Origin: Sphingomonadaceae bacterium
GTDB taxonomy: Bacteria > Pseudomonadota > Alphaproteobacteria > Sphingomonadales > Sphingomonadaceae
Assembly (NCBI GenBank): GCA_020847445.1
Contig: JADLBY010000190.1
Span: 1-36,102, forward strand
Direction: 5' to 3'
Length of the DNA: 36,102 nt
The notes under the pieces are model-generated. The model did not search any database and was not told the DNA's origin. It saw only the letters and a list, made by a program, of their open reading frames with translations. Of the stretch, positions 1,310 to 5,040 are shown one piece after another. How positions within the stretch are numbered: position 1 is the stretch's first letter; each line of letters begins with the position of its first letter. The position numbers and the translations under genes are program-made.

Positions 1310-1992
1310 TCCGGCAGGCTTTCGAGCAACTGCCGCGCCCGCCCGCGCCAGTTCACTGCCAGCACCTCCATGTCCGCCAGTTCGCGCAATGCGGCCTTTG
1401 CCCCGTCGATGCGGTGCATGCCGCCGATCAATAGCTGAAACACGCGCTCGACGGTCCAGCCATGGCGGGGGCGTTCGACCTGTTCGATGCCGTCATCGGC
1501 ACTTATCAGCCCTTCCTCGATCACCCTGAAATAATATCCGCTGCGCCCTGTCTGGATGACGGCGGCCAGCATGCCCTTCACACCGAAATGATGGTCGATT
1601 TTCCAGCAGGGCTGCCGGCCCTGACTGATCTCGACCAGTGCGGTGCCGATGCGGAAACGGTCGCCGATCCGCACGCGATCCTCGGTCATTGCCAAAGCCG
1701 AGATGTTTTCGCCAAAGCCGCCCAACCGGCCGAGATGGGGGTGCGGCTCGCGCCCCGCGCGCGCAAAGTCCGCCTGCCACAGCGGATAATGTTCGCCCGG
1801 ATAGAAATGCACCGCCTTGTCGGCCCCGCCATGGACCGACGGATCGCCCACCTGATCGCCTGCAAAGCCGGTGAAGGTCAGGCGGACTGCGTGCTCCGCC
1901 GGGATGCGCGAACCGATCGAACTGGCTTCGCCATCGCCTCTGAACGCAACCGGTGTGCCAACCAATAACGCGTCGATGCTCGTCCTGATCAT
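1306..1992 (-). CDS. MOSC domain protein (YiiM-like)
   Basis: 228 residues. The N-terminal half carries the MOSC beta-barrel signature: GDQVGDPSVHGGADKAVHFY, then GGFGENI and RVRIGDRFRIGTALVEIS. The conserved cysteine of the family is seen in QGRQPCWKI. The C-terminal 70 residues correspond to the helical tail of YiiM-type proteins, which reduce N-hydroxylated bases with molybdenum cofactor; by homology this could be a Moco-binding reductase or sulfur carrier. The ATG at 1992 is preferred over an upstream in-frame codon at 2103, because that would give a 37-residue extension overlapping the divergent glycosyltransferase. The stop overlaps the corC stop (CTAG). No partner molybdenum genes are nearby. 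Confidence 0.8.
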   Translation of the reverse strand: MIRTSIDALLVGTPVAFRGDGEASSIGSRIPAEHAVRLTFTGFAGDQVGDPSVHGGADKAVHFYPGEHYPLWQADFARAGREPHPHLGRLGGFGENISALAMTEDRVRIGDRFRIGTALVEISQGRQPCWKIDHHFGVKGMLAAVIQTGRSGYYFRVIEEGLISADDGIEQVERPRHGWTVERVFQLLIGGMHRIDGAKAALRELADMEVLAVNWRGRARQLLESLPD

Positions 1993-2062
1993 GGCCAAGC
2001 TTAACCCGGCCAGCGCGGCTTGGCCATTGGCAATCGCGTCACCGCTGGCTAATAGGCTGTCG

Positions 2063-3217
2063 ATGCAGATGGTGGACCTTCGCATTGCCCTGTTCAGCGG
2101 CAATTACAATTATGTGCGCGATGGCGCCAATCAGGCGCTGAACCGGCTGGTGGGCTATTTGCTGCGACAGGGCGCGCAGGTGCGTGTCTATTCGCCCACC
2201 GTTGCCGAACCCGCCTTTCCGCCCACCGGCGATCTGGTCAGCGTGCCGTCAATGGCCATCCCCAACCGCCCCGAATATCGCATCCCGCTGGCGCTGTCGG
2301 GCGCGGTCAGGCGCGATCTGGAGGCCTTTGCCCCCAATGTCGTCCATATCTCCAGCCCCGATCGGGTCGCGCGCAAGGCGGTGAAATGGGCGCGGCGGCG
2401 CAACCTGCCCGTGCTTGGATCGGTGCACACACGGTTCGAAACCTATTTCCGCTATTACAATATGTCGTTCCTCGAACCGCTGGTCGAGGCCTGGTTGCGC
2501 ACGCTGTATCGCAAATGCGATGCGCTGGTCGCGCCGTCGGAATCGATGGCACAGGTGCTGCGGCAGCAGCGGATGAACTATGATATCGACATCTGGTCGC
2601 GCGGCGTCGATCGGGAGATTTTCCATGCAGGCCGCCGGGACATGGCGTGGCGCCAAAGCCTGGGCATCGAAGACGATTTGCCGGTCATCGGCTTTCTGGG
2701 CCGTCTGGTCATGGAAAAGGGCCTCGACGTCTTTTCCGATACGGTCGATCAGCTTTGCCGCCGCAATGTCAGGCACAAGGTCCTGGTCATCGGCGAAGGC
2801 CCCGCCCGCGGATGGTTCGAGAGCCGCCTGCCCGGCGCCGCCTTTGTCGGCTTTCAGGGCGGTGCCGACCTTGCCCGCGCGGTTGCCAGCATGGATATGC
2901 TGTTCAACCCCAGCGTCACCGAAACCTTCGGCAATGTCACGCTCGAGGCCATGGCCTGCGGCCTTCCCGTGGTTGCCGCCAAGGCCACCGGCAGCCAGAG
3001 CCTTGTCGACGACAACCGCTCGGGTCGCCTGATCACCCCCGGCGCGATCGCGCAGTTCGCCGAGGCGCTGCGTAGCTATTGCGAAAACCCCGCGCTGCGC
3101 ATCGAACATGGCAAGGCCGGAGAAGACCGCAGCCTCGACTATAGCTGGGATGCAATCAACCAGACCGTCGCCGACACCTATATCCGCCTGATCCGGCAGC
3201 GCATGGTGAAGACATGA
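2063..3217 (+). CDS. GT4-family glycosyltransferase
   Basis: 384 residues with a GT-B fold. The N-terminal acceptor domain begins RIALFSGNYNYVRDGANQAL, a variant of the glycine-rich loop of GT4 enzymes, with HTRFETYFRYY and VAPSESMAQVL further on. The C-terminal nucleotide-sugar domain has IGFLGRLVMEKGLD and the E-x7-E motif in V-T-E-T-F-G-N-V-T-L-E-A-M-A-C-G-L-P-V-V. Overall it resembles bacterial mannosyl- or hexuronosyl-lipid transferases such as MgtA/PimB-like proteins, so a glycolipid product is plausible (sphingomonads make glycosphingolipids), but donor and acceptor cannot be read from sequence. ATG 2063 or 2069 are both possible starts; the frame is open back to 1871. No sugar-pathway genes flank it. 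Its stop codon abuts the inverted repeat of the next cassette. Confidence 0.85.
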   Translation: MQMVDLRIALFSGNYNYVRDGANQALNRLVGYLLRQGAQVRVYSPTVAEPAFPPTGDLVSVPSMAIPNRPEYRIPLALSGAVRRDLEAFAPNVVHISSPDRVARKAVKWARRRNLPVLGSVHTRFETYFRYYNMSFLEPLVEAWLRTLYRKCDALVAPSESMAQVLRQQRMNYDIDIWSRGVDREIFHAGRRDMAWRQSLGIEDDLPVIGFLGRLVMEKGLDVFSDTVDQLCRRNVRHKVLVIGEGPARGWFESRLPGAAFVGFQGGADLARAVASMDMLFNPSVTETFGNVTLEAMACGLPVVAAKATGSQSLVDDNRSGRLITPGAIAQFAEALRSYCENPALRIEHGKAGEDRSLDYSWDAINQTVADTYIRLIRQRMVKT

Positions 3218-3723
3218 TGTCACCCAACGCACCAACGGCACGACGCGGATCGCTTTGATGGCATCTGGCGGGCATGACGTCGAACGACTGATAACCGCCA
3301 CGATGGATTGTGGCTTTGCCATTCACCGTGCACTTGGCCCTGGGCTTCTTGAATCGGCTTACGAGATATTGCTGGCGGCAGCGCTTGCCAAGCGTGGCCT
3401 TCGGGTTCAGCGTCAGGTTGCTACACCATTGTCGTTCGAAGATGTGACGATCGAAGATGTATATAAAATCGACCTTCTGGTGGAAGGCCTGCTCATTGTG
3501 GAACTCAAATCCGTCGAGCGCCTCGCGTCCGTACATCGCAAGCAACTCCTCACTTATCTGCGGATCACCGGTCACCCTGTCGGCTTGCTAATGAATTTTG
3601 GCGAAGCCATGCTGAAAAACGGAATCCACCGCGTTATCAACGACCGGAGCGATTATATTGCACCTAAAATTGGCAGAGCAACATATCATGAATAAGCGGC
3701 GGTCGTTGGTGCGTAGGGTGACA
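3218..3723. mobile_element. Possible small element: GxxExxY gene bounded by 20-bp inverted repeats
   Basis: The left end 3218-3237 (TGTCACCCAACGCACCAACG) and the right end 3704-3723 are reverse complements with one mismatch (19/20). The trinucleotide TGA flanks both outer ends (3215-3217 and 3724-3726), which could be a short target duplication or chance. The only gene inside is the GxxExxY ORF; there is no transposase. The unit sits exactly between the glycosyltransferase stop and the rarA start. Its mobile nature is inference. Confidence 0.5.
3258..3695 (+). CDS. GxxExxY family protein (PDDEXK-like)
   Basis: 145 residues from ATG 3258; an in-frame TTG lies one codon upstream. It shows the family's naming motif G29-x-x-E32-x-x-Y35 within HRALGPGLLESAYE. 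It also shows a nuclease-like D71...E81-x-K83 arrangement (KIDLLVEG, IVELKSVE) and the closing LLMNFGEAMLKNGIHRV. The D...ExK layout is that of the PDDEXK superfamily, but no activity or substrate is established for GxxExxY proteins. The gene is noticeably richer in A+T than its neighbours, especially in its 3' third, and is bracketed by near-perfect 20-bp inverted repeats, both hinting at acquisition. Family identification is firm; the biological role is unknown. Confidence 0.88.
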   Translation: MASGGHDVERLITATMDCGFAIHRALGPGLLESAYEILLAAALAKRGLRVQRQVATPLSFEDVTIEDVYKIDLLVEGLLIVELKSVERLASVHRKQLLTYLRITGHPVGLLMNFGEAMLKNGIHRVINDRSDYIAPKIGRATYHE

Positions 3724-3729
3724 TGAAAA

Positions 3730-5040
3730 ATGGCTGACCTTTTCGCATCCGCTGACCCTGCCCCCCCGGCAAACGCACCGCTCGCCGACCGCATTCGCCC
3801 GCAATCGCTGGCCGATGTCGTCGGACAGGAACATCTGACCGGCCCCGATGGGGCGATCGGGCGGATGGTGGCGGCGGGTCGGTTGTCGTCGATGATATTG
3901 TGGGGCCCGCCGGGAACGGGAAAAACCAGTATCGCGCGTCTGCTCGCCGATGCCGTGGGAATGCACTATATGGCGGTGTCGGCGGTATTCTCCGGGGTTG
4001 CCGACCTGAAGAGGGCCTTTGCCGAGGCCGAACAGGTTGCGCGCACCGGCAAGGCGACACTGCTGTTCGTCGACGAGATCCACCGCTTCAATCGCGCGCA
4101 ACAGGATGGATTTCTGCCCTTTGTCGAAAGGGGAATCGTGACGCTGGTCGGTGCGACCACCGAAAATCCCAGTTTCGAACTCAATGCCGCCTTGCTCAGC
4201 CGCGCACAGGTGCTGGTGCTCAGGCGTCTGGACGACATGGCTTTGGGCCAGTTGCTCGACCGGGCCGAAGCGCTGCAAGGCGAGGCGCTGCCGCTGACCG
4301 ACGATGCCCGCACTGCCCTGATCACCAGCGCCGATGGCGACGGGCGCTTCCTGCTCAACCAGGCCGAGACGCTGTTTGCCATCGCCCCGCCCGATGCACC
4401 GCTCGATCCGCAGGCGATGGCCGCCCTGCTCCATCGGCGTATGCCGGTGTATGACAAGGATCGCGAGGGCCATTACAACCTGATTTCCGCGCTGCACAAA
4501 TCGATGCGCGGTTCGGACCCGCAGGCAGCGCTTTACTGGCTGGCGCGGATGCTGGTCGCGGGTGAGGAGCCGCTCTACGTGCTGCGCCGGATCACCCGCT
4601 TTGCGGTCGAGGATGTCGGCCTTGCCGATCCGCGTGCGCTTGAACAGTGCATCGCCGCCAAGGACGCCTATGAATTTCTGGGCTCGCCCGAGGGCGAACT
4701 GGCGATCGTGCAGGCCTGCCTCTATTGCGCGACCGCGCCCAAATCGAACGCCGCCTACAAGGCGCAGAAGGCGGCATGGAAACTGGCGAAGGAAACCGGT
4801 TCGCTGATGCCCCCCGCCAATATCCTGAATGCGCCGACCAGGTTGATGAAGGATATCGGCTATGGAAAGGGCTATGCCTATGATCATGATGCCGAGGAGG
4901 GCTTTTCAGGCGCCAATTACTGGCCCGACGCCATGCAGCCGACCGAGCTGTATCGCCCCGTGCAACGCGGGCTGGAGGCAAAGATTGCCGAACGCCTTGC
5001 TTACTGGAACGGCTTGCGCATGCAGAAGGGGATGACATGA
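3730..5040 (+). CDS. rarA: Replication-associated recombination protein RarA (MgsA)
   Basis: 436 residues, normal length for the RarA/MgsA/WRNIP1 AAA+ ATPase that acts at stalled replication forks. Visible motifs are RPQSLADVVGQEHL, Walker A GPPGTGKTS (about residues 58-66), Walker B FVDEIHRFNRAQQD, sensor 1 GATTENPSFE and the arginine-finger helix NAALLSRAQV. The C-terminal tetramerisation region includes YNLISALHKSMRGSDPQAALYW, typical of the family. The preceding inverted repeat ends six bases before the ATG, so the usual leader may have been replaced. The stop overlaps the next gene by ATGA, suggesting translational coupling. Confidence 0.95.
   Translation: MADLFASADPAPPANAPLADRIRPQSLADVVGQEHLTGPDGAIGRMVAAGRLSSMILWGPPGTGKTSIARLLADAVGMHYMAVSAVFSGVADLKRAFAEAEQVARTGKATLLFVDEIHRFNRAQQDGFLPFVERGIVTLVGATTENPSFELNAALLSRAQVLVLRRLDDMALGQLLDRAEALQGEALPLTDDARTALITSADGDGRFLLNQAETLFAIAPPDAPLDPQAMAALLHRRMPVYDKDREGHYNLISALHKSMRGSDPQAALYWLARMLVAGEEPLYVLRRITRFAVEDVGLADPRALEQCIAAKDAYEFLGSPEGELAIVQACLYCATAPKSNAAYKAQKAAWKLAKETGSLMPPANILNAPTRLMKDIGYGKGYAYDHDAEEGFSGANYWPDAMQPTELYRPVQRGLEAKIAERLAYWNGLRMQKGMT

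Follow-up and report, generated by a model that had tools for sequence, protein, structure and literature searches.

GxxExxY nuclease genes in inverted-repeat cassettes: a candidate minimal mobile element of bacteria

Introduction

TIRtrons and REPtrons are TIRYT and RAYT tyrosine-transposase genes that are flanked by long inverted repeats or by REPs (PMC3733652). The GxxExxY cassettes described here share several traits with them: one small nuclease gene stands between long inverted repeats (hereafter arms), the repeats are dispersed singly, as dimers and in clusters, and genomes hold several gene copies, each accompanied by a repeat of its own. Like the GxxExxY cassettes, REPs also lie close behind the 3' ends of genes (PMC3733652). 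The enzymes however are unrelated, an HUH/Y1 transposase in TIRtrons and REPtrons and a PD-(D/E)XK protein in the cassettes, and the GxxExxY arms differ in being built mostly from tandem 8-bp units and in co-varying with the protein. The layout criterion of a REPtron or TIRtron (long inverted repeats and dispersed copies) was met, while the criterion of an HUH/Y1 gene was not. By analogy, the cassette may work like a REPtron or TIRtron, but it fails membership, and a class of its own could perhaps be deserved once activity has been shown.

DDE insertion sequences and MITEs offer another likeness, namely a gene between terminal inverted repeats and internally deleted derivatives. The cassette differs from DDE insertion sequences in that neither a DDE transposase nor a target duplication was detected, and in that its arms are far more variable between copies; of the traits that define DDE elements, the inverted repeats were met, and the target-site duplication and the DDE transposase were not. 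PD-(D/E)XK homing endonucleases, such as I-Ssp6803I, belong to the same superfamily and are likewise selfish genes, but no intron or intein was found at the locus analysed here and the unit is bounded by its own arms. Finally, S23 (TIGR02436) four-helix-bundle genes are known from intervening sequences (IVS) of 23S rRNA (PMC4990558), which resemble the cassette in their length of about 430 nt, their one small ORF and their terminal stem of about 28 bp. The IVS lies inside 23S rRNA, whereas our cassette has protein genes on both sides and its product (PF13366) is unrelated, so that membership of this group (23S rRNA location and S23 ORF) was not met.

GxxExxY proteins are widespread, but in the family libraries that we searched they had no stated role, and the TIGR04256 and PF13366 family descriptions mentioned neither a cassette nor arms (the curator's full note, which was not included, may mention repeats). 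In the open-access literature that we searched, inverted-repeat cassettes around GxxExxY genes were not described. We examined one such gene in a stretch of 36,102 nucleotides from a Sphingomonadaceae bacterium (hereafter the window), and compared it with its relatives in the same genome, genus, order and beyond, each species being represented by a single genome.

Results

The cassette of the window

The whole arm-bounded cassette occupies positions 3217..3724 on the forward strand (508 bp); that the mobile unit extends from arm to arm was shown on relatives and not on this copy. The left arm (3217..3237, forward strand, 21 nt) is complementary at 20/21 positions (95%) to the right arm (3704..3724, reverse strand), and 466 nt separate the two. 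The GxxExxY/PDDEXK_3 nuclease gene (3258..3695, forward strand) encodes 145 aa with intact H-E-D-ExK-QxxxY residues, counted from the ATG at 3258, with a TTG present at 3255. It is preceded by a glycosyltransferase-like host gene (1871..3217, forward strand), whose TGA stop codon (3215-3217) ends on the first base of the left arm, and followed by a rarA-like AAA ATPase gene (3730..5040, forward strand), which starts six bases after 3723. The cassette sits between protein genes, outside 23S rRNA.

An earlier note, made from sequence alone, had placed repeats with 19/20 matches at 3218-3723, immediately after one stop codon and six bases before the next start. Both claims held, the repeat being the same one drawn one base shorter per side, with the TGA at 3215-3217 and rarA at 3730. 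The note had also reported no transposase and only a PDDEXK-like ORF; no transposase was found between the window arms, and the mechanical ORF list additionally contained an antisense ORF (3156-3575), for which no Pfam family was detected at E<=0.1. The TGA that it had seen on both outer sides is real as sequence, but we read it as a coincidence and not as a target duplication, because 167 cassettes showed no consistent excess of flanking direct repeats. The comparison of the glycosyltransferase-rarA junction that the note had proposed was carried out in 29 genus relatives, out of 39 with a rarA match: 28 of the 29 junctions were without the cassette, and one genome (G030) alone contained it. 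In the cassette-free relatives the two genes mostly overlapped or lay within about 140 nt of each other, with another ORF between them in two cases, and in close relatives rarA began at or overlapping the glycosyltransferase stop.

The inverted repeat of the window scored 18.5, against a 99th percentile of 14 and a maximum of 19.5 for random placements in the loci of the census described below (n=543). Taken alone, the arm pair is rarer than 1 in 100, yet it remains within the most extreme control; we take it as certain because the GxxExxY family as a whole shows arms. The left-arm units, CACCCAACG-CACCAACG, are a deviant form of the 8-bp family unit RCRCNRAG, and the related cassette of G030 (L042) carries the units CACCCGACG-ACCCTACGG-CCCAACG; both keep the family skeleton, with AACG replacing AAAG. 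A short palindrome with related arms was found elsewhere in the same genome (C13:17724-17771; L009 1225-1272), with the opposite arrangement of arms around a 10-nt centre, and one of its sides agreed at 29/34 bases with the window sequence read inwards from the left arm. In the lowest-energy fold predicted for a transcript of 3205-3735, the two arms of the window paired with each other. The search for a sigma-70-like promoter in 3100-3800 gave no match, which is weak evidence given that 0.4 matches were expected by chance, and an Rfam search of positions 3000-4000 gave none at E<=1.

The GxxExxY protein

The window protein was assigned to TIGR04256 (GxxExxY; 1.4e-36) and to PF13366 (PDDEXK_3; 4.7e-36), and passed the curated cut-offs of both (125.4 bits against 35, and 124.2 against 22). 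Residues E32, D72, E82, K84 and Q96 (window numbering) were kept in at least 173 of 175 sequences, H23 in 99% and Y100 in 170/175; the conservation of the nuclease-site residues (97-100%) indicates that selection keeps the nuclease site. The test for the PD-(D/E)XK superfamily (E...D...ExK, QxxxY and core fold, in the RecB/Cas4-like branch) was met. No solved structure related by sequence was found at E<=1. The AlphaFold2 model of the protein (pLDDT 87.9) weakly matched 4ic1 (SSO0001, which we take to be a Cas4), lambda exonuclease and LHK-Exo in Foldseek (E 0.03-0.07, none <=0.001), while viral PD-(D/E)XK nucleases fitted the model better, with six matches at E<=0.001 (the best being 1.3e-8 for an unnamed and 2.1e-6 for a named protein). 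PADLOC returned Cas4 only, with weak similarity (E=0.003).

The scan of species genomes for relatives of the window protein confirmed at least 521. No match was obtained by tblastn against 50,697 phage records, nor in the PHROGs search, and only 7 of 72,556 plasmid records matched; on these counts a phage or plasmid gene was rejected. One of the matching plasmid records is an 880-kb Sphingomonas plasmid with a fabD-cassette-fabG layout.

Arms across the GxxExxY family

Our census comprised 203 distinct GxxExxY genes or gene fragments, 198 of which had enough flank to be tested. Inverted repeats above the 99th percentile of the control were detected at 183 of these 198 loci, in several phyla, and 143 loci exceeded the control maximum (19.5). 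The threshold was passed by 4/4 loci of the window's own genome, 35/40 of the genus, 74/77 of the order, 68/75 of other genomes and 2/2 from plasmid records; in a first, smaller test, 97 of the 106 loci that could be tested had scored higher than the 99th percentile of random placements in the same loci. Genus and order loci were gathered by profile, blind to repeats, and every listed match was examined, while the other-genome set was drawn from the 521 relatives of the window protein by taking the best 80 and is therefore biased to close relatives. Many of the 198 loci share sites, so they do not represent 198 independent origins.

Fifteen loci remained under the threshold (L017, L021, L310, L315, L317, L268, L318, L319, L074, L061, L043, L102, L100, L109 and L046). 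Three of them (L317-L319) are each the second piece of a split gene, the other piece of which exceeds the threshold, and in several others arm-like sequence is visible by eye; a few, such as L315 and L100, may be truly armless. When the left flank of one cassette was paired with the right flank of another, the median score was 10 and the 99th percentile 24, higher than for random placements because the arms resemble one another.

The three other GxxExxY genes of the window's genome have inverted repeats of 40-43 nt that are 84-95% complementary, each of a different sequence. Among the 167 cassettes with a clear repeat, an outer TCnCnC anchor was recognised in 132 left and 133 right arms, and the left and right consensus were identical (TC-RC-RC-RRAG-RCGC-RRAG-RCGC-RRAG). 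This consensus, common to most arms, is the 8-bp unit RCRCNRAG in tandem with a T/G-rich edge outside, and the unit recurs as sequence across phyla. Some arms are purine-rich instead, for example two in the window's genome (C84, C117). We also noted four loci (L053, L087, L095 and L103) with a complete short hairpin on each side of the gene in place of a single arm per side, and one in a Pirellula MAG (L090) with the same arm-spacer-arm sequence in both flanks, as if the cassette and its spacer had been duplicated in tandem.

Arms follow the protein and mates co-vary

Arm similarity was correlated with protein similarity over 107 genus and order cassettes (r=0.64; 0/300 shuffles as high). With same-site and same-genome pairs removed, the correlation was 0.53 over 4822 pairs, a value that was reached by none of 300 arm shuffles within genomes (maximum 0.386). 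The pair removal and the within-genome shuffles together show that the link between arm and protein is due neither to host composition nor to inheritance at single sites. The window protein and its same-site sister in G030 are set apart by the longest inner branch of the protein tree (1.21, support 100/100), and share the changed arm unit as well as the branch.

The two arms of a cassette also change together. The true mate was the best-matching arm in 81 of 107 cassettes. Covariation was tested on the 94 of 135 anchored cassettes that kept register: between cassettes at the same site, 806 of 1119 left-arm changes were matched by a compensating change in the right arm (164/216 pairs in register), and for disjoint same-site pairs the fraction was 55/92, or 0.60 (18/26 pairs), compared with a mean of 0.17 and a maximum of 0.35 when right arms were re-dealt within sites (200 deals). 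Arm mismatches on the coding strand were G.U in 66 cases and A.C in 56 (p=0.42). This absence of a significant bias is easier to reconcile with a DNA-level constraint, whether through protein contact, a cruciform or copying from one arm to the other, than with an RNA stem. A conserved RNA was rejected, given the lack of a significant G.U bias and of any Rfam match at E<=1 in 3000-4000.

Boundaries of the mobile unit and empty sites

We compared cassettes with similar proteins at different places. In three deltaproteobacterial genomes (L085, L057 and L091), the proteins are 85-92% identical with no detected homology between the flanks, and the three sequences resemble one another over the stretch that begins with CTCACGC and ends with GCGTGAG, but not outside it. 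Only the three-way comparison gives a clean left boundary, because L085 and L057 additionally share a 7-bp tandem repeat of GGATTMR type (simple sequence) to the left of the left arm. A repeat of this kind is also found around S23 genes. In L047, L079 and L086 the similarity is likewise bounded by the arms to within a few bases, and two copies at different places of one genome (L266 and L267, 82% protein identity) are alike from TATTTCACGC in the left arm up to a point inside the right arm. Since the similarity between cassettes without detected flank homology sets in and breaks off at the ends of the arms or close to them, the mobile unit runs from arm to arm, as shown by this comparison of relatives and not on the window copy.

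No consistent excess of flanking direct repeats, as expected of a target-site duplication, was found in 167 cassettes (k=2-9 bp, nine offsets). At the L035 site, two genomes (G010 and G012) hold 3 nt where three others (G017, G023 and G004) hold about 470 bp with the cassette; to the right of their right arm, the filled copies carry about 16-19 further bases, which are missing from the empty sites and are not accounted for by a simple arm-to-arm insertion. A tail starting with CAAAAT after the right arm was seen in several cassettes and solo palindromes (the L035 site, L352 in G004, L187 and L189), and is absent from the empty L035 sites. As 71 of 72 cassette pairs within one genome were at most 62% identical, no transposition burst was caught.

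Genomic position and long residence

The upstream gene was codirectional in 137 of 183 cassettes, opposite in 37 and absent in 9, according to a crude gene caller. Codirectionality (137/174) was modestly higher than the local background of neighbouring gene pairs (319/446); a binomial test against 50% was dropped, because neighbouring genes are already codirectional at this background rate. For the 137 codirectional upstream genes, the median distance from stop to arm was 5 nt, with 102 within -5..25 nt, and a stop-codon scan of the 122 doubly anchored cassettes (ORFs of >=100 aa) found a same-strand ORF ending within -80..+25 nt of the TC of the left arm in 111, none of them inside the first 25 nt of the arm. 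The striking feature is the closeness to a stop codon and not the codirectionality, although these cassette distances lack a random-placement control.

Shared sites, with homologous flanks on both sides, accounted for 103 of 175 cassettes, which fall in 19 sites (29, 12, 12, 5, 5, 5, 4, 4, 4, 3, 3 and 3 cassettes, and seven sites of 2), the remaining 72 being single. The largest is fabD|fabG; other flanking genes, named from the look of the sequence, we take to be nspC, rnr, proS and the like. In the protein tree (108 rows, few columns), cassettes cluster strongly by site. The six largest sites needed 9 changes on this tree, against a shuffled mean of 34.1 and a least possible number of 5, on which ground pure vertical inheritance was rejected, and four sites were forced to at least two changes by well-supported branches. 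The identity of flanks and that of cassette proteins were correlated at some sites (1.00, 0.81, 0.79) and not at others (0.38, 0.01, -0.15). Our reading of the site and tree data, which is an inference, is that the cassettes reside for long, move rarely and re-occupy the same gene joints. Within one order movement is likely to be rare, because the cassettes are mostly faithful to their sites (103/175 in 19 sites; 9 site changes).

Solo palindromes and deletion derivatives

We also searched for arms without the gene. Matches to the triple-unit arm pattern were present in 35 of 45 genus genomes, with up to 47 matches, compared with 0-4 per genome for the reversed-pattern control. Solo palindromes, of which 20 stretches were examined, showed both orientations and loops of varying length and sequence. 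Across the 297 genomes of the order, at least three arm matches were found in 45/57 gene-bearing genomes and in 18/240 gene-free genomes (odds ratio 46, p=1.6e-27); when two matches per gene were subtracted for the genes' own arms, 38/57 remained (p=2e-20). The richest example (G321) combined eight GxxExxY genes with 172 arm matches. The link was weaker inside the genus (p=0.007), and some arm-rich genomes had no detected GxxExxY gene (17-26 matches; G040 26, G034 18, G021 18, and G029). Possibly the gene was lost there, or something else spreads the arms.

Short solo palindromes lay within 60 nt of a stop reading towards them in 22 of 28 cases, compared with 71 of 280 random placements, which were not limited to intergenic DNA. 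No gene remnants were detected at E<=1 in 26 of the 28. Two short palindromes in G026 (L357) keep both gene ends and lack the middle, and in G006 at the L035 site the first codons of the gene lie between the arms; these three are deletion derivatives of cassettes. The L357 locus (G026:C13) is a tandem array that includes internally deleted copies.

S23 genes outside rRNA

S23 genes were absent from the 45 genus genomes (0/45), and the control genomes likewise gave no match. They were present in 21 of 29 searched genomes of other groups that hold GxxExxY cassettes. We collected 30 S23 loci (L203-L232) and tested 28, leaving out two weak partial matches (L222 and L223); 27 had enough flank, and 20 of these 27 showed inverted repeats above the control maximum (12; n=80). 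By eye, 7-bp tandem units make up the arms, and many sequences occur among them (GGATTCA, AGGCACT, GGTCTTT). No Rfam match at gathering score was found for 20 of the S23 loci, and thus no recognised 23S rRNA. The S23 genes outside rRNA share the cassette layout, but with 7-bp units in place of the 8-bp units of GxxExxY arms. Repeats of the heptamer TAACTGA are described in PMC4679880, where S23 is not mentioned in the passages that we searched on this point.

Discussion

The observation of a GxxExxY cassette is confirmed and proves far wider than a single window, in that it is an element of the whole family. The earlier note had suggested a non-autonomous or self-mobilising element, with terminal repeats that would be a strong clue to the role of GxxExxY genes, and the family-wide comparison supports both. 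It had named two observations that would refute this. Relatives with the gene and without the repeats do not do so, as only 15 of 198 testable loci fell under the threshold. Repeats without the gene were indeed found, so that this condition is partly fulfilled; the solo arms, however, are dispersed palindromes and do not mark one conserved regulatory place.

We lean, with some reserve, towards reading the 508-bp unit as a minimal selfish mobile element that belongs to a widespread family and in which one PD-(D/E)XK gene, RecB/Cas4/lambda-exonuclease-like, stands between co-evolving arms. Comparison shows the arm-to-arm unit, the absence of a detectable duplication, the place behind stop codons and the arms that go with their own protein, and it also shows that internally deleted copies and solo palindromes build up chiefly in gene-bearing genomes. 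The part played by the enzyme is inferred, without biochemical data. In the mechanism that we propose, the GxxExxY protein would bind the 8-bp repeats in the arms of its own cassette, probably in an extruded hairpin or cruciform form, and would nick or cut where the arms end; host repair would then join the arm-to-arm DNA, whether released or copied, to a new break behind a gene. The gene would probably be read through from the host operon, for which the missing promoter-like match is only weak evidence. Solo palindromes would be deletion derivatives, MITE- or REPIN-like.

An alternative at the level of mRNA is that the cassette is an intervening sequence, whose arms form an RNA stem that is cut from operon transcripts by host RNase III; in a variant, the stem hides the gene start until an upstream ribosome opens it. 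The unit would spread by unknown means and the stem would protect the host operon. In its favour, the predicted transcript fold pairs the two arms, codirectional genes flank many cassettes, which lie directly behind stops, the Coxiella IVS (428 nt, its small ORF enclosed by a 28-bp terminal stem) is cut by RNase III in vitro (PMC4990558), and S23 genes outside rRNA also have flanking inverted repeats (20/27 above the control maximum). Nevertheless, the expected preference of G.U over A.C was not significant (66 vs 56, p=0.42), the whole fold was only weakly better than shuffles (z=-1.77; 5/100 as good), and the 8-bp unit recurs across phyla and tracks the protein, neither of which a mere stem needs; we consider this explanation, with its variant, unlikely as a whole. 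Homing also seems improbable to us. Here the nuclease would cut solo palindromes as empty targets, and repair from an occupied copy through arm homology would insert the gene. The L027 site, with the gene in G017, G010, G019 and G033 and a solo palindrome in G012, G014, G015, G023 and G029, speaks for it, as do the separate protein lineages found at one site (at least 2-3 changes forced for groups s0-s3), and other PD-(D/E)XK homing enzymes exist, I-Ssp6803I being an example. Against it, the L027-site palindromes have CGCAGAG arms and the G017 and G010 cassettes CACAAAG arms, so that arm homology would be poor, the L035 site in G010 and G012 is empty without any palindrome, and solo loops vary in sequence and length, three of them being plainly deleted cassettes.

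It could also be argued that the gene is cargo, with another enzyme of the cell mobilising arm-bounded DNA and GxxExxY serving in repair or phage defence. Arms are indeed found in the absence of the gene, enclosing unrelated DNA, and the protein has weak Cas4 similarity (PADLOC E=0.003). However, no second gene recurs in the cassettes examined, the arm sequence is tied to the GxxExxY protein of its own cassette and not to the host genome alone, and Y1 transposases were unmatched in 41 of the 45 genus genomes; we regard cargo as a doubtful explanation. A RAYT was rejected as the mobiliser, with Y1_Tnp in only 4/45 genus genomes. A chance inverted repeat around an ordinary gene can be set aside almost entirely: the window pair alone is rarer than only about 1 in 100, but 183 of 198 GxxExxY loci show repeats.

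Returning to the reading as a selfish mobile element, a bolder form of it would make GxxExxY genes the engine of an undescribed autonomous class of bacterial mobile elements. The nuclease would recognise its own tandem-unit hairpin arms and move arm to arm without target duplication, landing a few bases behind stop codons, spawning MITE-like palindromes and re-occupying operon joints over the long term, and S23 genes, whose arms have 7-bp units, would form a second class by convergence. For these statements taken jointly, we find it as easy to believe that they hold as that they fail. If true, they would link the 23S rRNA intervening sequences with a more general type of 'hairpin cassette'.

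Should the cassette reading be correct, GxxExxY genes and dispersed palindromes with units of CTTTGCG, CTCCGCG or CTTCGTG type, which occur in Sphingomonadales and beside such genes in Planctomycetes, Verrucomicrobia and deltaproteobacterial genomes, would receive one explanation. The role of GxxExxY would become directly testable, because each protein brings its own candidate substrate, the two arms, and a new type of nuclease would join the drivers of minimal mobile elements.
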